Origin: Profundicola chukchiensis
Lineage (GTDB): Bacteria; Bacteroidota; Bacteroidia; Flavobacteriales; Weeksellaceae
Assembly: GCF_029664245.1 (NCBI RefSeq)
Contig: NZ_JANAIE010000004.1
Span: forward strand, 124,001 to 188,000
Direction: 5' to 3'
Length of the DNA: 64,000 bases
The stretch's first letter is position 1; every line of letters starts with the position of its first letter. The translations under genes were made by a program, and so were the position numbers. A model generated the notes under the pieces. The model was given only the letters and a program-made list of their open reading frames with translations, did no database searches and was not told the DNA's origin. Of the stretch, positions 16,754-26,726 are shown in pieces.

Positions 16754-17044
16754 ATGTCTCAATCCAAGAAGATTAGTTGATTTGAGTAAACTTTTTAAGA
16801 ATAAGTGAATATTCCTATGAATACTGTATAGAATTAAATGTTAAAATATTAAGATAATATTTGAGCGGTGTAGAATCTACACTTTTTACTGATAATGTAA
16901 CATTTGAGTGAAATAACTTAGAATCCGTATTGTCAAAACTTAATTTTATTGAAATTTTCTTTGTAAAATGGTTTTTATATTAAATAAATAAAATTTACAT
17001 TTGGGCTGATTTAATTTTAAATGTTCAACAGTTTAAATTTTTTT
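16754..17044. other. Gene-free spacer before the subtilase
   Basis: About 290 bp of AT-rich sequence. The only structure I see is GTGTAGAATCTACAC at 16868-16882, a 15-bp inverted repeat followed by TTTTT, which could be an operator or a weak terminator-like hairpin. No exact TAnnTTTG stands near the subtilase start. Confidence 0.45.
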
Positions 17045-20000
17045 ATGAAGAAACTTTACCAAAGATTAGCCACTGCTCTTATCTTCTTTTCGATAGGGAG
17101 TATTGGCTTAAATGCACAAACTGCTCAACAGAGAGTTGAGATTAAAAAACTAACCAATGTTAGTGAGCTCAAGAGCTTAGGCCTTGAGCTTTCTGATTTT
17201 AATCTGAAAGAAAAACGTAAGGCAGAAAGGATTGCTCTGCAAAGAGGTTGGGAAGTTCAAGGTAGGACCTTAGATGGTGCTTATTTTGAACTAATGAAAG
17301 TAACTGCCGATGGAACGCCTATTTATTATCAGACGTATAATAAAAATGCAGCTATTTCTACAAGAGCAAATACACTAAATTCTGGAGGTCTATTAAACTT
17401 AGACTTAAATGGAGAAGGTATGTTGGTGCATGTATGGGATGGTGGTCATGCTTTGACTACACACCAAGAATATGATGGTCCAGGCGGACAAAATCGAGTG
17501 AGTATTGGAGATAGTGGATATAGTACCAACTATCACTCAGGTCACGTAATGGGCACAATCCTTAGTTCGGGATATCAAGCCAACGCCAAAGGTATGGCAT
17601 CAAAAGCTTATGGTGTTTCATACGATTGGACTAACGATTCCTCAGAAGCTAGTTCGGCAGCGGCTAATTCCATGATTTTATCTAACCACTCTTATGGTTA
17701 TAGAAGTGATATGGTTCCAGATCAATATTTTGGAGCTTATATCGATGAATCTAGAACTTGGGATCAGATTATGTACAACGCACCTTACTATTTAATGGTG
17801 GTTGCTGCAGGAAATGATGGAGGGAATGATAATTATAATGCACAACCTTTAGGAGGTAACTCTGCATTTGATAAGCTTACTGGGCATTCGGTTTCTAAGA
17901 ATAATTTAGTAGTAGCCAATGTTCAAGATGCTCAAATCGATTCACAAGGAAATTTAGTGTCGGTAACTCGTAACTATTCAAGTAGTGAAGGGCCAACAGA
18001 TGATTATAGAATCAAGCCAGATATTGCTGGAAACGGTACAAGTGTTTACTCATCTAGTGTTGAGTCAAGTAGTTCATACCAAACATTAACCGGGACTTCT
18101 ATGGCTTCTCCGAATGTTACGGGAACGCTATTGCTATTACAGCAACATCACACCAATTTATATGGAAATATAATGAAAGCGGCCACTTTAAAAGGGCTTG
18201 CTTTACATACAGCAGATGATATTAGTCCTGTAGGGCCAGATGCAGAAACTGGTTGGGGATTGATGAATGCAAAAGCAGCAGCCGAAGCGCTTTCACAAAA
18301 AGGTAGTAAATCATTGATTGAAGAATTGACTTTGTCTAACAATCAAACTTATACAACGACAGTAAATGTTGCGAATCCACAGGATTTAAAAGTTTCAATC
18401 AGTTGGACAGACCCTGCTGGAAATGCTGTAACAGCTACTAACTCTAGTACACCTGTGTTAGTTAATGATTTAAATTTAGTCGTTACTAAAAATTCAACTT
18501 CTTACTATCCTTGGAAATTAACAGGCGTTACAACCAACGGAAAAGGAGTGAACAATGTAGACCCATTCGAGCGAGTTGATATAAGTAATGCTTCTGATGA
18601 GTATACGATTAAAGTTACACATAGCGGAAGTTTAAGCGGTGGAGCTCAAAATTTCTCATTAATTGTTACTGGAATTTCAGGTCAAGCTTCAGAAGATACA
18701 GTAGCACCTACAGCACCATTAAACTTAGCAGCATCTAACGCAACAGCAACAAGCTTAAACCTAAACTGGAACGCTTCTACAGACAATGTTGGTGTAACAG
18801 GTTATGAAATCTATATGGATAATGTTTTATATGGAACTGTTTCTGGAACTAGTGAGGAGATTACAGGTTTAACACCGAATACAACGTATGCATTTAAAGT
18901 TAGAGCATATGATGCAGCAGGTAACAAATCAAACTTTAGTAACAGCGTTTCAGCGACAACTTTAGACGGACCAGCTGTAGCTTATTGTACATCTAGCAGT
19001 AACAATAGCAATGATGAATATATCAGCAAAGTAGTTTTCGGAAGTATTAATAACTCTTCTGCTAACACAAGGTATAGTGATTATACACATTTATCTACAG
19101 ATGTAACAAAAGGAGAAACTTATACATTAAACTTAACAAAAGCTTGGACAGGAACTGTTTATAATGAAGCTGTAAGAGCATGGATTGATTTTAATGGAGA
19201 TGGTGATTTTGATGATGCAGGTGAATTAATTTTAAATGAACCAGCAGATAAAGTAGCTAATAAGAGCGTAAATGTGGCTATTCCAGCAAATGCTGCAACA
19301 GGTGCGACTCGTATGAGAATTATTATAAGCTACAATAGCGGTGCAGCTGCTTGTGGAACTTATAATTATGGTGAAACAGAAGATTATACAGTTAATATTG
19401 TAGATTCAGTGAGTGATACACAAGCGCCAAGTACGCCTACTTCATTGGCAGTATCAGGTAAAACAACCTCAAGTATTTCTTTAAATTGGTCAGCTTCAAC
19501 GGATAATGTTGGTGTGGTTGGGTATAAAGTATATCAAAATGGAGTTTTTGCTAAATCAGTAACGGGAACTTCAACTACCATGACGAATTTAAGTGAGGGT
19601 ACATCTTACTCATTCAGGGTTTCAGCCATCGACGCTGCGGATAATGAATCAGTTAAGAGTAATAGTGTAAGTGCTACTACAGATGTAAACACGCCTGCGC
19701 CAGTTGATTATTGTTCATTACAAGGTAACAACTCAAGCTATGAGTGGATTGATTATGTAGCCTTAGGAAACATGAGCAATGTTACTGGAAATGATGGTGG
19801 ATATGCAGATTACACCAACAAAGTAGCGAATATTGGATATGGTGCAAATACAGTTTATTTGAGCGCAGGATTCTCAAGTTCAATATATACGGAGTATTGG
19901 TATGTATGGGTTGATTTAAACCAAGATGGTGTATTCTCTTCTTCTGAATTACTGATTAGCGGATCAGCAAGAAGCTCTCAAACATTGAACGGAACCTTGA

Positions 20001-20428
20001 ATATTCCTTCAACAGCTAAGCAAGGAAAAACTCGAATGAGAGTAGCTATGAAATACAACCAAAGCAGCAGTGCATGTGGTAGCTTCGGTTATGGAGAAGT
20101 TGAGGACTACACAGTAAACATCAGTTCTACAGGAGGAAATTCAACTTACGCAAGCATTGAATCAATCGCTTTAATTAGTGTTGATGCAGCAGCGAAAAGA
20201 CTTAATGTATATCCAAACCCAGTTAAATCAGGATTTGTAAACATTAAATCAAATGAGTTGAAAGATGGTTCTTATGAGCTGTTTGATATGAATGGAAGTT
20301 TAATCAAGTTTGGAATTTTCACAGGAGAGTCTATTAAAATTAATGTAGATGGTTTACCAACTGGTAAATATTTCGTTAGAATCTCTAAAGATGGAAGACA
20401 AGCTACAGAAGGTATAATAATTCAATAA
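17045..20428 (+). CDS. T9SS-exported subtilisin-like (S8) serine peptidase with FN3 and GEVED repeats
   Basis: About 1127 residues from ATG 17045, chosen because MKKLYQRLATALIFFSIGSI begins the signal peptide; the longer frame adds eight residues. The subtilase domain has Asp in VHVWDGGH, His in YHSGHVMGTI, the oxyanion Asn in VAAGNDGG and Ser in TGTSMASPNVTG, so the catalytic set is intact. Then come a beta-rich P-like region and two copies of an FN3-GEVED pair (FN3 near 550 and 791, GEVED near 647 and 888). A type A T9SS sorting domain (LNVYPNPVKSGFVNIKS to GKYFVRISKDGRQATEGIII) ends the protein. Expected location is the cell surface or medium; the substrate is unknown. Confidence 0.93.
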   Translation: MKKLYQRLATALIFFSIGSIGLNAQTAQQRVEIKKLTNVSELKSLGLELSDFNLKEKRKAERIALQRGWEVQGRTLDGAYFELMKVTADGTPIYYQTYNKNAAISTRANTLNSGGLLNLDLNGEGMLVHVWDGGHALTTHQEYDGPGGQNRVSIGDSGYSTNYHSGHVMGTILSSGYQANAKGMASKAYGVSYDWTNDSSEASSAAANSMILSNHSYGYRSDMVPDQYFGAYIDESRTWDQIMYNAPYYLMVVAAGNDGGNDNYNAQPLGGNSAFDKLTGHSVSKNNLVVANVQDAQIDSQGNLVSVTRNYSSSEGPTDDYRIKPDIAGNGTSVYSSSVESSSSYQTLTGTSMASPNVTGTLLLLQQHHTNLYGNIMKAATLKGLALHTADDISPVGPDAETGWGLMNAKAAAEALSQKGSKSLIEELTLSNNQTYTTTVNVANPQDLKVSISWTDPAGNAVTATNSSTPVLVNDLNLVVTKNSTSYYPWKLTGVTTNGKGVNNVDPFERVDISNASDEYTIKVTHSGSLSGGAQNFSLIVTGISGQASEDTVAPTAPLNLAASNATATSLNLNWNASTDNVGVTGYEIYMDNVLYGTVSGTSEEITGLTPNTTYAFKVRAYDAAGNKSNFSNSVSATTLDGPAVAYCTSSSNNSNDEYISKVVFGSINNSSANTRYSDYTHLSTDVTKGETYTLNLTKAWTGTVYNEAVRAWIDFNGDGDFDDAGELILNEPADKVANKSVNVAIPANAATGATRMRIIISYNSGAAACGTYNYGETEDYTVNIVDSVSDTQAPSTPTSLAVSGKTTSSISLNWSASTDNVGVVGYKVYQNGVFAKSVTGTSTTMTNLSEGTSYSFRVSAIDAADNESVKSNSVSATTDVNTPAPVDYCSLQGNNSSYEWIDYVALGNMSNVTGNDGGYADYTNKVANIGYGANTVYLSAGFSSSIYTEYWYVWVDLNQDGVFSSSELLISGSARSSQTLNGTLNIPSTAKQGKTRMRVAMKYNQSSSACGSFGYGEVEDYTVNISSTGGNSTYASIESIALISVDAAAKRLNVYPNPVKSGFVNIKSNELKDGSYELFDMNGSLIKFGIFTGESIKINVDGLPTGKYFVRISKDGRQATEGIIIQ

Positions 20429-22084: not shown

Positions 22085-22124
22085 AAAAAACGCCCTTGAA
22101 ATTATTTATTTCAAGGGCGTTTTG
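22085..22124. terminator. Bidirectional terminator
   Basis: The arm AAACGCCCTTGAAAT (22088-22102) pairs perfectly with ATTTCAAGGGCGTTT (22108-22122), a 15-bp stem with a 5-nt loop, A-run on the left and T-run on the right. It lies between the convergent lipoprotein and TonB-receptor genes. Confidence 0.93.
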
Positions 22125-22146: not shown

Positions 22147-24936
22147 TTAAAACTCAATATCTAATCCTAAATATACTGAACCTGGCATTATTGGAGCCCA
22201 AACCATTCCACCATCAAAGTATTCTCCGAACGGATTTTGAACATCAATAATTGGGTTGTCTTGGGTGTATCCTAAGATGTTTTCAGCGCCTAAATACATT
22301 CTAAGTGTCTTGTTGAATTGTCTTGCAATTTGTGCGTTTAGCAAGAAGTAAGAATCTGCATAATCTGGTGTTTGAAACTCTACAGGATTCGTTGAGGTGT
22401 TTGGAATCCTTTGCTCTCCAACATACTGTAAAGTTGTATCAAAGCTCCATTGGCTACCATTAGCCTTAATCCAAGTATTATAAGCTAAGTTCATAAAACC
22501 TCTATGCTCTGGCGTAAATGGTAAATTTTTAGCACCTGATAAATAATCGCCTTGTGTTTGGTAATTCTTATAAGCTAATCTTGCTTCCAATCGCTTCACT
22601 GGCTCAAAATCCCACTGAATTTGGAATGCTCTAGCATAAGATTTTCCTTCCATATTATAGAAAAGAATCTTTTGCGTTGACTGATCTAAATCTGGTAAGA
22701 TTTGATTTTCGAAATCTGTGATAAAATAGTCTGCAATAATATTCGATTTATTCCCGAAAATTCTAAATTCTTGGTGTAAACTTATTCCATAGTTCCAAGC
22801 GATTTCTGGATCTAAACCATAAATATCACCGCCTCCATCAATAATTTCAACGGTTCTATTGCTCGCTAAGAAGCTCTGAGCTTCAGAAAACACATTGGCC
22901 GTTCTGAAACCTCTTCCTGCCGAAGCACGTAAGGTTGTCTTAGGAAATAAATCATATTTTAAATTCGCTCTCGGCGTAAACTGAGTTCCTGCCAAGTTGT
23001 GGAAATCTACTCTCGAACCTAACACGGCAGTTAATTTGTCTCCGGTATAAGTGTATTCGAAGAAAGCTCCTGGAACTGTTTCTGTTCTTTTGTAATCATT
23101 TACCTGATAAACCTCGTCGTATTGATCATGTAATAACGAAGCTCCCGCTTTGTATTTATGTAATGTACTACCTAAAATACTTTCAAAAATTAAATTAGAA
23201 TAAATGGAACGTTGGATACCATTATAAGGTGTAGTCCCAAAGAAAGATTTCTGCTCATGATAAGTATATTGATTCATCCAACCCAAAGATTGGTAAGGCT
23301 TATCTTTAAATACGTATCCTGTTTTATTCCAAACTTGAAACCTAGAAATATCAATCCCAACGCCATACTTTTCTGTACCTAACTTATGGTAATCTTCAAC
23401 AAAATCAACCTGTCCCGCTGTTCTGTGGTCGTCTATAAAGCTAATCCCGAAGTGAGTTCCTATTCCTGAATTATCTAAATCATTATAATTCAATAAATAA
23501 GTTGCATTTAATTGTTTTCCAATGGGTTGGTCCATAAAACCATCATCATTGCTGTCTTGTCTATCGATAGTTGCATTCGCATGTGCTAAAAAGCTATGTG
23601 CCCACTTTCCATTGATTGTATCAGCATGTACAATATTCCCTTCGATTCTAGAGTTAGTGTCTCCAAAGAAGTTAAGCGATGTTTTATTCTTGTCGTGTGT
23701 CTTGAATAACTCTGTATTTATCTGCCCTGAAATAGATTCATAACCATTGGTTACTGTACTTCCTCCTTTGGTTAATTGAATTCCCTGAACCCATCTTCCT
23801 GGTATGAAATTCATTCCATAAGCGGATGCTAATCCTCTAATTTCTGGTAATAATTCTTTAGTAATCAAAGTGTACTTTTGGTCTAAACCTAACATTTTGA
23901 TTTGTTTGGTTCCGGTTACCGCATTCGCATAATTCACATCAACCGTTGCATTGGTTTCAAAACTCTCCGAAAGGTTACAACATGCTGCTTTTAATAATTC
24001 TTTTGAATCGATATTAAATGTCAATCCAGCGCTTTTCCCGTCTAAAGCTGTCGCTGCTTTATTTCCAACAGCGCTAACATTGGCTAGACTAATTGCGTCT
24101 TCATCTAACCAAGAATAATCCTCATCTTCTTCTGATTCCGTATTACTATCAGCAACACTCTTCTGCTCTGGTGTAGCTTCACCATCCACATGAGTTCCTT
24201 TGCTGTTTTTAATATTATCCCAAGCTGTTACTCGATCATACAAACAGCAATCAGGTAAATTATTGTAATCCTTGTCATCTGCCGTATATAATTGATTATC
24301 GTAACCTGCGGCAGCAACACGGCGCATGATTTTGTCTAAGCTAGTTTTACTTTCGTCAAAATCTAATTCCAATACTTTGGTTTGAATGTTCCAAGTTCCT
24401 TTAGCTGTTGCTTCTTTACTAACTGCAGTTTCTATGGTTTCTTTACACATGCTACAATTTCCACGAACCAAGATTTGCTCTTTAAAGTCTGATGATTTAG
24501 TGATAGTTTTAACTTGGTTTGAAGTTATTGTTGCAAACTCTTGGGGTGCTTCAGCTTGTCCATCAAAATGAGTTCCTTCGCTATTTTCAATATTATCCCA
24601 AGCAGTTACGCGATCATACTGACAACAATCGGCTAAATTTCTATAGTCTTTGTCGTCTGCCGTGTATAATTGATTATCGTAACCAGCTGCCGTAACGCGA
24701 CGCATGATTTTATCTAAATTAGTCTTTTTAGCATCAAAACTTAGTTTTAACACTTTGGTTTTAACATTCCACGTTCCTTCCGCAGAAGATTCTTTTTTAA
24801 CAGCATTTTCAATGTTGTCTTTACACATTCCGCAATTTCCGCGCACCAAAATTTCTTCGGTTGTGATTGTACTTTTTTGTCCAAATAATCCAATGGATAG
24901 GAGCAGAGTCAGTACAAAAAATATCTGTTTATACAT
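22147..24936 (-). CDS. TonB-dependent receptor with two N-terminal heavy-metal-associated (HMA-like) domains
   Basis: A 929-residue outer-membrane protein. The signal peptide is MYKQIFFVLTLLLSIGLFGQ. Two HMA-like domains follow, with GNCGMC (Cys35/Cys38) and GNCSMC (Cys161/Cys164). Each is trailed by a conserved tail containing an AAGYDNQLYTADDKDY-type stretch (first copy TAAGYDNQL), a DCC-YDR Cys pair and GTHxDG. The two copies are exactly 126 codons apart and alike in DNA. After a linker come the plug (KAACCNLSESFETNATVDV; GYESISGQINTELF) and a 22-strand-type barrel ending MPGSVYLGLDIEF. Metal, probably copper-like soft-metal, uptake or sensing is inferred from the CxxC domains and the Cys/His-rich neighbour; the ligand is unproven. 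Confidence 0.88.
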   Translation of the reverse strand: MYKQIFFVLTLLLSIGLFGQKSTITTEEILVRGNCGMCKDNIENAVKKESSAEGTWNVKTKVLKLSFDAKKTNLDKIMRRVTAAGYDNQLYTADDKDYRNLADCCQYDRVTAWDNIENSEGTHFDGQAEAPQEFATITSNQVKTITKSSDFKEQILVRGNCSMCKETIETAVSKEATAKGTWNIQTKVLELDFDESKTSLDKIMRRVAAAGYDNQLYTADDKDYNNLPDCCLYDRVTAWDNIKNSKGTHVDGEATPEQKSVADSNTESEEDEDYSWLDEDAISLANVSAVGNKAATALDGKSAGLTFNIDSKELLKAACCNLSESFETNATVDVNYANAVTGTKQIKMLGLDQKYTLITKELLPEIRGLASAYGMNFIPGRWVQGIQLTKGGSTVTNGYESISGQINTELFKTHDKNKTSLNFFGDTNSRIEGNIVHADTINGKWAHSFLAHANATIDRQDSNDDGFMDQPIGKQLNATYLLNYNDLDNSGIGTHFGISFIDDHRTAGQVDFVEDYHKLGTEKYGVGIDISRFQVWNKTGYVFKDKPYQSLGWMNQYTYHEQKSFFGTTPYNGIQRSIYSNLIFESILGSTLHKYKAGASLLHDQYDEVYQVNDYKRTETVPGAFFEYTYTGDKLTAVLGSRVDFHNLAGTQFTPRANLKYDLFPKTTLRASAGRGFRTANVFSEAQSFLASNRTVEIIDGGGDIYGLDPEIAWNYGISLHQEFRIFGNKSNIIADYFITDFENQILPDLDQSTQKILFYNMEGKSYARAFQIQWDFEPVKRLEARLAYKNYQTQGDYLSGAKNLPFTPEHRGFMNLAYNTWIKANGSQWSFDTTLQYVGEQRIPNTSTNPVEFQTPDYADSYFLLNAQIARQFNKTLRMYLGAENILGYTQDNPIIDVQNPFGEYFDGGMVWAPIMPGSVYLGLDIEF
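24165..24870 (-). repeat. Tandem in-frame 126-codon duplication inside the TonB-receptor gene
   Basis: Two copies offset by 378 bases encode the HMA-like module plus its DCC-containing tail. Long identical or near-identical stretches, for example CTGCCGT[A/G]TATAATTGATT near 24280 and 24658 (+ strand), show duplication at DNA level and not just similar folds. Confidence 0.85.
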
Positions 24937-25095
24937 TCTGTTTGTTGATTTTATATTTTAAAAATGGCTTTAAGAAAGTACCTTCATGGGAATTATTTCA
25001 CTAAAAATTCGTGAATTTGGCCTAAGAATGATTTTCTTAAAAAAGTTTAATGATTTGAGTGGATTCTAAGTTTTAATCTTAAAAACTACGATTCC

Positions 25096-25113
25096 TTCGG
25101 AAAGTTCTCCGAA
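25096..25113. other. Small inverted repeat between the Cys-rich gene and the TonB receptor
   Basis: TTCGGA-AAGTTC-TCCGAA is a perfect 6-bp inverted repeat in the 234-bp gap between the two metal-locus genes, without a T-tract. It could be an operator or a weak processing hairpin. Confidence 0.35.
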
Positions 25114-25170
25114 ATTGTGTATAAGCCTAATTATCTGAATTTGAAATCAGTAATTAGCTTAAAGTAATGA

Positions 25171-25557
25171 TTAAACCTGTTTTGGAGGATTCCAAAAAGT
25201 TAGAGTGAATTGTTGTTGAAATAAATCCTGAAAGTAAGAGGATTGGTTCAACGAGCTAATTTCTTCTTTAATAGAAATTTCTGAATTTTGAGAAGGTGGT
25301 TCAATGCTATGCGTAACCACATGTGCCGCATGATCTTGACATTTGTCTTTGCAAGTGTCCTTACAAGAATGTTGATTGGCAATATCGTCTTCGTGACAAG
25401 ATTTCGCATCAACAGATTCTGAATCAGCATTAACATCTACACAACACATCATTTCTTCCTGCGCTTGATAGTTGAGCTGAAAATTAAGCCCAAGTGATGG
25501 CGTTGCTATAAATAGCAAGGATAAAAATAAGTGAGATATAAAGATGAATTCTCGCAT
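25171..25557 (-). CDS. Small Cys/His-rich exported protein (HYC_CC_PP-like)
   Basis: About 128 residues from ATG 25557; the three-codon-longer frame starts with TTG and overlaps the promoter. An N-terminal hydrophobic signal (FIFISHLFLSLLFIATPSLG) is followed by a Cys/His-rich middle: MMCC, SCHEDD, HSCKDTCKDKCQDHAAHVV. The C-terminus ends QFTLTFWNPPKQV. The Cys pair, Cys cluster and terminal W-x-PPK match the HYC_CC_PP family of small Bacteroidota proteins, often found by metal-linked TonB receptors. It lies 234 bases upstream of such a receptor on the same strand. Periplasmic metal binding is inferred. Confidence 0.75.
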   Translation of the reverse strand: MREFIFISHLFLSLLFIATPSLGLNFQLNYQAQEEMMCCVDVNADSESVDAKSCHEDDIANQHSCKDTCKDKCQDHAAHVVTHSIEPPSQNSEISIKEEISSLNQSSYFQDLFQQQFTLTFWNPPKQV

Positions 25558-25563
25558 CGAACG

Positions 25564-25571
25564 CAAAAGTA
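25564..25571 (-). promoter_or_regulatory. -7 element almost abutting the start of the Cys-rich gene
   Basis: The minus strand reads TACTTTTG (TAnnTTTG), ending only six bases before the ATG at 25557. Transcription would start at or next to the start codon, implying a leaderless or nearly leaderless mRNA. Confidence 0.5.
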
Positions 25572-25763
25572 CAAAACATATTTAAATTAGTATGAATTTA
25601 AATAAGAAGCTATCAATTAAGATTTCATAAGATTACCTACAAGATTTATAGAATTGATATTTTTAATATGTATTTCTTAAGATAATTGTTTAAACTTCGA
25701 TGATTGTGCATTTTCTATAGTAAAATGTGATTTATGTGACTGGGAGTTCGATAAAAATTTGAC

Positions 25764-25787: not shown

Positions 25788-26726
25788 ATGACAGACAACA
25801 TACACGAAACCATCATTGTTGGTTCAGGACCTGCCGGATATACAGCAGCTATCTATGCAGCACGTGCAGATATGAGTCCATTAGTTATCACAGGAATGGA
25901 GCCTGGAGGACAACTTACAACGACTACAGATGTTGAAAACTACCCAGGTTATCCAGAGGGAATTATGGGACCAGAGATGATGGGTGACTTCCAAAAACAA
26001 GCTGAAAGGTTTGGTGCAAAAGTGATTATGGATATGGTGACGGAAGTTGAATTTTCTGAAGAGAAAGGAGGAATTCACACCCTAACCACTATGAATGGCG
26101 ATGTTTATAAAACTAAAACCGTTATCATTTCTACAGGAGCTTCTGCTAAATATTTAGGTTTAGAAGACGAAAAGAAATATATGGGAAGTGGAGTTTCTGC
26201 GTGTGCAACTTGTGACGGATTTTTCTATAAAAATCGCGATGTAGTGGTTGTTGGAGCTGGTGATACAGCAGCAGAGGAGGCTACATACTTAGCTAAGATT
26301 TGTAACAAAGTTTACTTATTGGTGCGTAGAGATGTTTTCCGTGCTTCTAACATTATGGAAGAGCGTGTTAAGAATACACCTAACATCGAGATTATGTATC
26401 ATACAGAATTAAAAGGTATGAGTGGTGATAAAGTGGTTGAAAAAGCACACATCATTAATAATCAAACAAACGAAACGAGTGAGTTGGCGGTAGATGGTGT
26501 TTTCATTGCAATTGGACATAAACCTAACACAGACTTATTTGTTGGTAAATTAGATATGGACGAAACAGGTTACTTAATCACTGAGCCTAAATCAACCAAA
26601 ACTAAAGTTCATGGCGTATTTGCTGCGGGTGATGTTCAGGATAGTATCTATCGTCAGGCTGTTACAGCTGCAGGTACAGGGTGTATGGCTGCTATTGATG
26701 CGGAAAGATATGTAAGCGAATTGTAA
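25788..26726 (+). CDS. trxB: Thioredoxin-disulfide reductase
   Basis: A 312-residue FAD/NADPH flavoenzyme that reduces thioredoxin in the cytoplasm. The FAD-binding motif is IVGSGPAGYTAAIYAARA, the redox-active pair is CATCDGFFY near residue 140, the NADPH-binding glycine motif is VVVGAGDTAAEEATYLA, and the C-terminal FAD contact is HGVFAAGDVQDSIYRQAVTA. Length is typical. It is a single gene with its own -7 element and terminator. Confidence 0.97.
   Translation: MTDNIHETIIVGSGPAGYTAAIYAARADMSPLVITGMEPGGQLTTTTDVENYPGYPEGIMGPEMMGDFQKQAERFGAKVIMDMVTEVEFSEEKGGIHTLTTMNGDVYKTKTVIISTGASAKYLGLEDEKKYMGSGVSACATCDGFFYKNRDVVVVGAGDTAAEEATYLAKICNKVYLLVRRDVFRASNIMEERVKNTPNIEIMYHTELKGMSGDKVVEKAHIINNQTNETSELAVDGVFIAIGHKPNTDLFVGKLDMDETGYLITEPKSTKTKVHGVFAAGDVQDSIYRQAVTAAGTGCMAAIDAERYVSEL

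Follow-up and report, generated by a model that had tools for sequence, protein, structure and literature searches.

A TonB-dependent receptor of Profundicola chukchiensis with two fused HMA modules, a probable copper receptor of Bacteroidota

The DNA analysed here, referred to as the window, is a stretch of 64,000 nucleotides from Profundicola chukchiensis (Bacteroidota; Weeksellaceae), taken from NCBI RefSeq assembly GCF_029664245.1 (contig NZ_JANAIE010000004.1, positions 124,001 to 188,000 of the forward strand). At positions 22147-24936 its minus strand encodes a TonB-dependent receptor which carries two tandem HMA modules in front of the plug. This protein is probably the copper-type receptor of a Bacteroidota acquisition operon with a tethered, doubled periplasmic metallochaperone. 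Every part is of a known kind, and a receptor with one or two tethered metallochaperones is a new combination relative to the literature searched. In the portions of open-access papers covered by that search, in which not all queries were aimed at fusion, no description of a TonB-dependent transporter (TBDT) fused to an HMA domain was found.

Organization of the receptor

The receptor is composed of the following parts.

22147-24936, minus strand: TonB-dependent receptor coding sequence (signal peptide, two HMA modules, acidic linker, plug and barrel), 929 amino acids without internal stops
24877-24936, minus strand: signal-peptide-like N-terminus, residues 1-20, from sequence reading and a predicted helix at residues 2-17
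24562-24873, minus strand: HMA module 1, residues 22-125 (CxxC at 35-38, cysteine pair at 104-105)
24184-24495, minus strand: HMA module 2, residues 148-251 (CxxC at 161-164, cysteine pair at 230-231)
24052-24183, minus strand: acidic disordered linker, residues 252-295, from linker composition and a predicted local distance difference test score (pLDDT) <50 at 249-295
23701-24051, minus strand: TonB-box-like segment and plug, residues 296-412 (limits by eye), with Cys319-Cys320 at 23977-23982
22150-23694, minus strand: beta-barrel, residues 415-929 (limits by eye), strands from the predicted structure

This layout bears out a sequence-only reading of the same DNA, which had placed two HMA-like modules in front of the plug of a TonB receptor. 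The motifs named in that reading are present in both modules, namely a CxxC (GNCGMC and GNCSMC), a trailing cysteine pair (DCCQYDR and DCCLYDR) and a common end (GTHFDG and GTHVDG). The spacing of 126 codons given there equals the 378 nt measured, and the reported likeness of the modules in DNA was found as a direct repeat of two 300-nt units (24175-24474 and 24553-24852) with 78% identity. The whole receptor contains ten cysteines, eight of them in the CxxC motifs and cysteine pairs of the two modules and the remaining two in the plug (Cys319-Cys320). The protein matches PF00593 with 101.9 bits (cut-off 27) and, as a whole, PF00403 with 25.4 bits (cut-off 24.8), while the single modules score 19.3 and 18.6 bits for PF00403, under the cut-off. 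A full-length AlphaFold model, built from a 37-sequence alignment, showed a mean pLDDT of 76.6, with both modules near 90 and the linkers (parts of 118-148; 249-295) predicted with little confidence. The model has a TBDT fold, with Z of 23.9-27.8 among the matches listed. A single histidine was counted between module and plug in the window receptor, and this linker contains histidine in many relatives.

Fold and conserved motifs of the HMA modules

A lone module modelled by AlphaFold from an alignment of 88 modules reached a pLDDT of 95.3. Structural comparison by Foldseek and VIA matched it to CopZ (2qif; Z 10.7, root-mean-square deviation 1.0 over 67 residues) and also to MerP and copper ATPase domains; the listed fold matches span mainly module residues 1-69 and barely cover the extension which holds the cysteine pair. 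Both the CxxC and the cysteine pair of the extension are invariant among the 88 aligned modules. Profile matches of the module were mostly copper ATPases and CopZ, along with ZiaA and MerP. The HMA fold, on which the sequence-only reading had been staked beforehand, was confirmed by structure prediction and the match to CopZ; at the level of the model, each module is confirmed as an HMA domain with an extension holding an invariant cysteine pair.

Fused modules and stand-alone neighbouring genes

The distribution of modules was surveyed at 160 receptor loci, of which four were dropped for short flanks and 156 were counted. A gene was taken as a neighbour when it lay on the same strand within 300 nt, and L034 and L035 were left out of the module and linker survey. 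A family search for modules per protein, as the earlier reading had proposed, distinguished 67 two-module, 31 one-module and 58 module-free receptors, and two modules are common (67 of 156 loci). A stand-alone HMA module gene adjoins the receptor at 52 of the 58 module-free loci, at 5 of the 31 one-module loci and at none of the 67 two-module loci. All 58 such genes, including one at a dropped short-flank locus, carry the CxxC and the cysteine pair. In a later sample across the phylum, the stand-alone gene was present at 13 of 20 loci of module-free receptors and at neither of 2 fused ones; most of the distant members of this sample are without it.

Two genes which are fused in some lineages and adjacent in others are a classical sign of joint action. 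The grouping of all fused receptors in one clade was rejected (p 1e-5); either the fusion arose at least twice, or one old fusion was later split. Parsimony requires three changes of the fused state on a tree of 80 rows. Because of the fused-or-neighbour pattern, and because the fused receptors do not form one clade, the comparison of loci makes it very likely that chaperone and receptor are coupled and act together. A third independent fusion, at L134, looked likely on the tree and was unsupported (p 0.725).

At the Parabacteroides distasonis locus (L183), the HMA gene 3' of the receptor relative has a CxxC and no cysteine pair, unlike the 58 counted genes. A sigma-70-family gene comes after the receptor and HMA genes of this locus.

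Age and history of the duplication

The proteins of modules 1 and 2 are identical at 72 of 94 residues (E 2e-56). The NG86 estimates of nonsynonymous (dN) and synonymous (dS) divergence between them were 0.145 and 1.22 over 104 codons, and 0.137 and 1.56 over 85 codons. The sequence-only reading had considered the duplication fairly recent or maintained, and only the second part of this holds. A recent duplication is ruled out by dS >1; the duplication is old and is kept by purifying selection, with dN/dS of about 0.1.

The two modules are 76% identical in amino acids and 56.5% identical at third codon positions, as compared with 76% and 46% between the window receptor core and that of the nearest congener. 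The third positions of the modules are the closer ones, and the doubling seems to postdate the divergence from the two known congeners, each of which has one module. In the module tree, the two window modules pair with each other (99/83), and this pair groups with the one module of the congener G042 (99/95). One shared ancient duplication in the two-module receptors of Weeksellaceae type was rejected, as their second modules do not form a single clade (p 0.0004). A group of window module 2 and its counterparts, the second modules in L005 and L007, was likewise rejected (p 0.014; p 0.036 for module 1), and so was a clade of the window, L005 and L007 on the receptor-core tree (p 2.5e-6). Because these shared groupings of second modules were rejected, the doubling in the window lineage was either separate or homogenised by gene conversion. 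At least eight changes between one and two modules were counted among the fused receptors on the 80-row tree.

Two HMA modules also precede the receptor in Sphingobacterium (L156 and L157), a separate doubling outside Weeksellaceae, and in L156 a CarboxypepD_reg domain lies between them. In the other congener, G018, the receptor frame (L006) breaks just before the single CxxC, which points to a sequencing error or to decay.

The receptor family

The receptor family is Bacteroidota-wide and was found in 102 of the 149 genomes sampled in the class (E 1e-60) and in 31 of 118 in the phylum; the copper reading supplies a substrate hypothesis for this widespread family. Among named organisms, Moheibacter lacus is the closest (65%), and the receptor core of L010 is identical to that of L095 from Weeksellaceae. 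The receptors were mostly picked best-first by similarity to the window receptor, by which Chryseobacterium is over-represented. The plug residues Cys319 and Cys320 are aligned in 183 of 183 receptors, 160 of which had been selected by a pattern with that cysteine pair and 23 of which had not (22 of the 23 match the pattern anyway). His452, in the third barrel strand by count, is present in 181 of the 183.

At the N-terminus, the Weeksellaceae receptors have a linker and either one or two HMA modules. In L134 and L156 an HMA module is followed by CarboxypepD_reg (PF13715, above cut-off), and L059 shows the same order with a score below the cut-off. Module-free members, read by eye, have a CarboxypepD_reg-like part alone or almost nothing at the N-terminus. 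The statement of the sequence-only reading that the usual N-terminal extension is carboxypeptidase-like is thus true of relatives, by PF13715 behind HMA in L134 and L156 and by eye in the module-free ones.

Membership in the OprC/NosA family was rejected: TIGR01778 was not among the families found at E up to 1, and neither CxxxM nor HxM is present in the 929 residues. At E up to 1e-10 the genome has two TIGR01778 matches, and the window locus is not among them. A separate OprC-like receptor of this genome (L175; C32:42148-44064) contains the OprC-like motifs ACPNRM (CxxxM) and HVM (HxM), and scores 263 bits against a TIGR01778 cut-off of 472. A small ORF (open reading frame) with three cysteines and the ending HPPIA lies upstream of L175 on the same strand and is possibly another CutF-like leader.

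The leader ORF and the intergenic RNA

Two features lie upstream of the receptor, where the sequence-only reading made no mention of the leader ORF.

25171-25557, minus strand: leader-like ORF of 128 amino acids with six cysteines, ending in ...FWNPPKQV, CutF/CruR-like by its features
24937-25170, minus strand: structured intergenic RNA of 234 nt between leader ORF and receptor, from folding

Published work on such leaders is cited here and below from parts of the papers. CutF (PMC9973294) and CruR, the leader of the copper importer CrtA (PMC9426467, PMC12914433), are described as copper-sensing leaders, and copper sensing by nascent chains has been demonstrated in Proteobacteria (PMC9426467, PMC9973294). 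In CruR, the sequence RAPP is situated three residues before the end and 45 residues after the CxxC (PMC9426467). CutF-like leaders have already been reported as common in Bacteroidota, with TonB-type proteins among the frequent neighbours (PMC9973294), and the leader finding extends this work. By the published filters (<150 amino acids, Pro-Pro in the last 15 residues, a same-strand gene within 1000 nt downstream; PMC9973294), the window ORF counts as CutF-like, with Pro-Pro at residues 124-125 and the receptor 234 nt downstream. Read by eye, it has a hydrophobic N-terminus.

At 155 of 160 loci a cysteine-rich ORF lies ahead of the receptor and has Pro-Pro within 45 residues of its end, by a lenient filter without a control of its own. 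Two leader families account for 79 of 80 named loci. The window leader matches the profile of the Weeksellaceae-type leaders (2e-13). All 42 of these carry Pro-Pro within their last 12 residues, compared with 5 of 528 other neighbouring ORFs; it starts 42-49 positions past the last cysteine, and 51 positions past it in the window leader. Among leaders of the other type, 35 of 37 have Pro-Pro within their last 22 residues (12 of 528 in the other ORFs). The window leader gave no match to NF047658 (HYC_CC_PP, cut-off 28), which the leaders of L139, L153 and L002 pass, and none to DUF2946 in Pfam.

The region 24920-25200 folds with a z-score of -4.38, and none of 200 shuffles was equally stable. 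The z-score was below -2 in 34 of 42 leader-receptor intergenic regions compared with 8 of 84 random stretches. As a control, 78 of 430 candidate same-strand intergenic regions from elsewhere were folded; because 33 of the 78 also had z below -2, part of this stability is common to intergenic regions generally. A stem of at least 8 bp between leader end and receptor start was found at 53 of 55 non-redundant loci, after near-duplicates and intergenic lengths outside 40-250 nt were dropped, compared with 89 of 245 control intergenic regions. The congener G042 has a 15-bp stem and a z-score of -2.36. In the Flavobacterium consensus, built from 15 of 17 module-free sequences, a 12-bp stem joins leader end and receptor start, and changes on both sides kept the pairing at 6 of 12 pairs. 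The consensus of Chryseobacterium and kin, from 21 of 25 two-module sequences, has a central hairpin with compensatory changes at 8 of 9 pairs and a small hairpin over the Pro-Pro codons; the joining stem was not seen in it. An Rfam search gave one match only, Ref70, at chance level (E 0.78).

The sequence TACTTTTG (25564-25571) fits what we take as the -7 promoter consensus of Bacteroidota. Six bases separate its end from the leader ATG (25557), so that the leader mRNA may have almost no 5' untranslated region. A perfect inverted repeat, ATTTAAATT-N6-AATTTAAAT (25580-25603), is also found upstream of this ORF and is the only exact copy in the genome. It was rejected as a conserved operator, as no match stood out in 79 homologous upstream regions, and as a genome-wide operator, as relaxed matches equalled the backwards control (16 and 17 per strand).

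Taken together, control of receptor translation by the leader is somewhat favoured. The leader ORF suggests that nascent-chain copper sensing, shown in Proteobacteria, may also control this receptor family.

At L093-L135, which are mostly Chryseobacterium, further genes precede the leader. By eye, a response regulator-like ORF is found at 34 loci (mostly at -3) and a histidine kinase-like ORF at 30 (mostly at -4), and a protein with NPPHGEPYHRC-type repeats is present at 33 (mostly at -2).

The transported metal

On a Pontibacter plasmid, the stand-alone module with its CxxC and cysteine pair is situated among RND efflux, TolC, DUF3347, SCO and cytochrome c genes, and the same island also contains genes for a four-helix copper protein and a P-type ATPase. 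A CusA/CzcA gene lies near the module gene in L003 and, as read from sequence, in L004, and one is found 3' of the receptor relative in Haliscomenobacter. In the flavobacterium Bizionia, an OprC-like receptor has been named as copper importer, and its other TBDTs are described, in the part of that paper used here, as being without this motif (PMC11213822). The profile and fold matches and the gene context favour copper. We consider copper the likely metal, and import, with still greater assurance, the likely direction. The suggestion of the sequence-only reading that the periplasmic part captures or passes on metal gains indirect support from the module being a neighbour gene in most module-free relatives and from its stand-alone form in the copper island.

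Proposed mechanism and alternative explanations

Few receivers of a metal ion behind an outer-membrane transporter are known to us, and the evolution of this family suggests one. It is encoded by a separate neighbouring gene in most of the module-free lineages sampled and forms part of the receptor in others, and the module number has changed repeatedly. In the proposed mechanism, the receptor would bring the metal, free or chelated, across the outer membrane using TonB energy, and the two HMA modules, on flexible linkers just ahead of the TonB box, would accept it in the periplasm. The invariant cysteine pair of the plug is a plausible donor to them, so a relay from cysteine to cysteine may lead from plug to modules. 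The modules would then hand the metal on to periplasmic acceptors. Tethering and doubling should raise the local concentration of the chaperone at the pore and limit free periplasmic metal, and the cysteine-rich leader ORF with its C-terminal Pro-Pro probably tunes receptor translation to copper. The fused-or-neighbour family makes the hand-over step directly testable. More tentatively, the locus could be a self-contained copper entry machine in which the leader would sense copper and set receptor translation, the plug cysteine pair would take Cu(I), and the tethered HMA modules would receive it directly, so that the metal is never free in the periplasm. If true, it would be the first TBDT to which a metallochaperone is covalently joined, a form that would have evolved from two separate genes on more than one occasion.

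Several observations weigh against a copper receptor with coupled chaperone and leader. Zinc and mercury proteins are also found among the HMA profile matches, and the metal loop is one residue shorter and without the methionine of the usual MxCxxC, G-N preceding the CxxC in the consensus. The barrel matches point to no single substrate (BtuB Z 27.4, OprC 25.0, ZnuD 24.8), and copper uptake may already be served by the separate OprC-like receptor L175. Apart from an HMA gene, no gene annotated at the loci in Bernardetia and Parabacteroides relates to copper. The plug residues 315-376 mostly have pLDDT <50 in the full-length model. Only three independent contrasts between fused and unfused state are available (sign test p 0.25), and the pattern rests on few evolutionary events. 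The intergenic RNA of the congener G018 shows no unusual stability (z -0.17), and that of the window is one of the two exceptions among the 55 loci, with 0 bp between leader end and receptor start. Because the window lacks this direct stem, the leader mechanism in the window organism is one that we infer by analogy from relatives.

The same architecture could serve zinc or another soft metal. The zinc ATPase ZiaA among the HMA profile matches and the separate OprC-like receptor of the genome speak for it, as does the report that some CutF-like leaders may bind nickel or cobalt and that not all are likely to be copper-specific (PMC9973294). We consider it unlikely, since copper chaperones are the closest fold and profile matches, the stand-alone module is located among copper genes, and the leader is rich in cysteine, unlike the histidine-only form tied to nickel or cobalt in that report. 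About as unlikely is that the HMA modules form a periplasmic sink or buffer against toxic metal which enters through the receptor, rather than a delivery relay. Histidine-containing linkers in relatives and the repeated changes of module number would suit a buffer, but the window linker holds one histidine, and a tether at the TonB box would fit transfer at the pore at least equally well.

It is quite improbable that the modules act as metal sensors which gate the receptor or its contact with TonB in the manner of a FecA-type signalling domain. Receptors with signalling domains carry them directly before the TonB box, which is where the modules are placed with respect to the TonB-box-like segment, and the receptor and HMA genes of Parabacteroides have a sigma-70-family gene behind them. 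Gating in cis is impossible, however, for the free exported protein that the module forms in most module-free relatives, and no sigma or anti-sigma gene was recognised beside the window receptor, where translations were read by eye, most neighbours without family search. A neutral duplication, by which the second module would have no functional meaning, has a similarly small probability. Both known congeners manage with one module, but dN/dS of about 0.1 with retention of every cysteine, and the origin of two-module forms in several lineages, argue for a function.

Other features of the window

One further feature was listed downstream of the receptor.

22087-22123, minus strand: terminator-like hairpin of 16 pairs with a T tail, 3' of the receptor, from a consensus match only

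Terminator-like sites number 3 in the region, as compared with 2.5 expected from shuffles. An ORF at 25788-26726, divergent from the leader, is read as thioredoxin reductase (trxB). A motif search in the flanks found trxB beside the receptor at 1 of 160 loci (72 of the loci have at least 3 kb on both sides), and for this reason the ORF is probably unrelated to the receptor locus; trxB is also found about 3 kb from the Parabacteroides receptor. A predicted exported protein of 1135 amino acids, at 17021-20428, can be read as a subtilisin-type protease that combines fibronectin-type repeats with an end typical of the type IX secretion system.

Comparison with known systems

With the OprC/NosA copper transporters (TIGR01778) the window receptor shares the TonB-dependent barrel and plug (OprC, Z 25.0 by VIA) and the copper import proposed here. 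A profile-profile comparison with ten OprC-like sequences gave a probability of 97, aligned from residue 383 on. It differs from them by the lack of CxxxM and HxM, by the invariant cysteine pair of the plug and by the N-terminal HMA modules.

CrtA/BfrG, the copper TBDT of Bordetella, is likewise preceded by a small cysteine-containing ORF with C-terminal Pro-Pro, CruR, which is exported as the window leader may also be, and three residues follow the Pro-Pro in 40 of 42 Weeksellaceae-type leaders as in CruR. The CrtA family, known here by description, is described as having two conserved histidines and no conserved cysteine, whereas Cys319-Cys320 are conserved here; membership in the CrtA type was rejected on this trait. 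The usual neighbour described for CrtA is a PepSY_TM protein, whereas here, in the phylum Bacteroidota, an HMA chaperone is fused or adjacent. The CutF-like sensors (PMC9973294) resemble the window leader in length, Pro-Pro and downstream gene, and stem-loops precede the next gene in its relatives. They differ from it in that a TBDT and not a multicopper oxidase lies downstream here, DUF2946 is not matched, and the window intergenic region is longer than most and folded differently.

The HMA metallochaperones of CopZ/MerP type have an identical fold, as predicted for the modules, with CxxC in the equivalent position. Their GMxCxxC is replaced by GNCxxC in the window modules, which have in addition a C-terminal extension with an invariant cysteine pair, and which are exported and fused onto an outer-membrane receptor.

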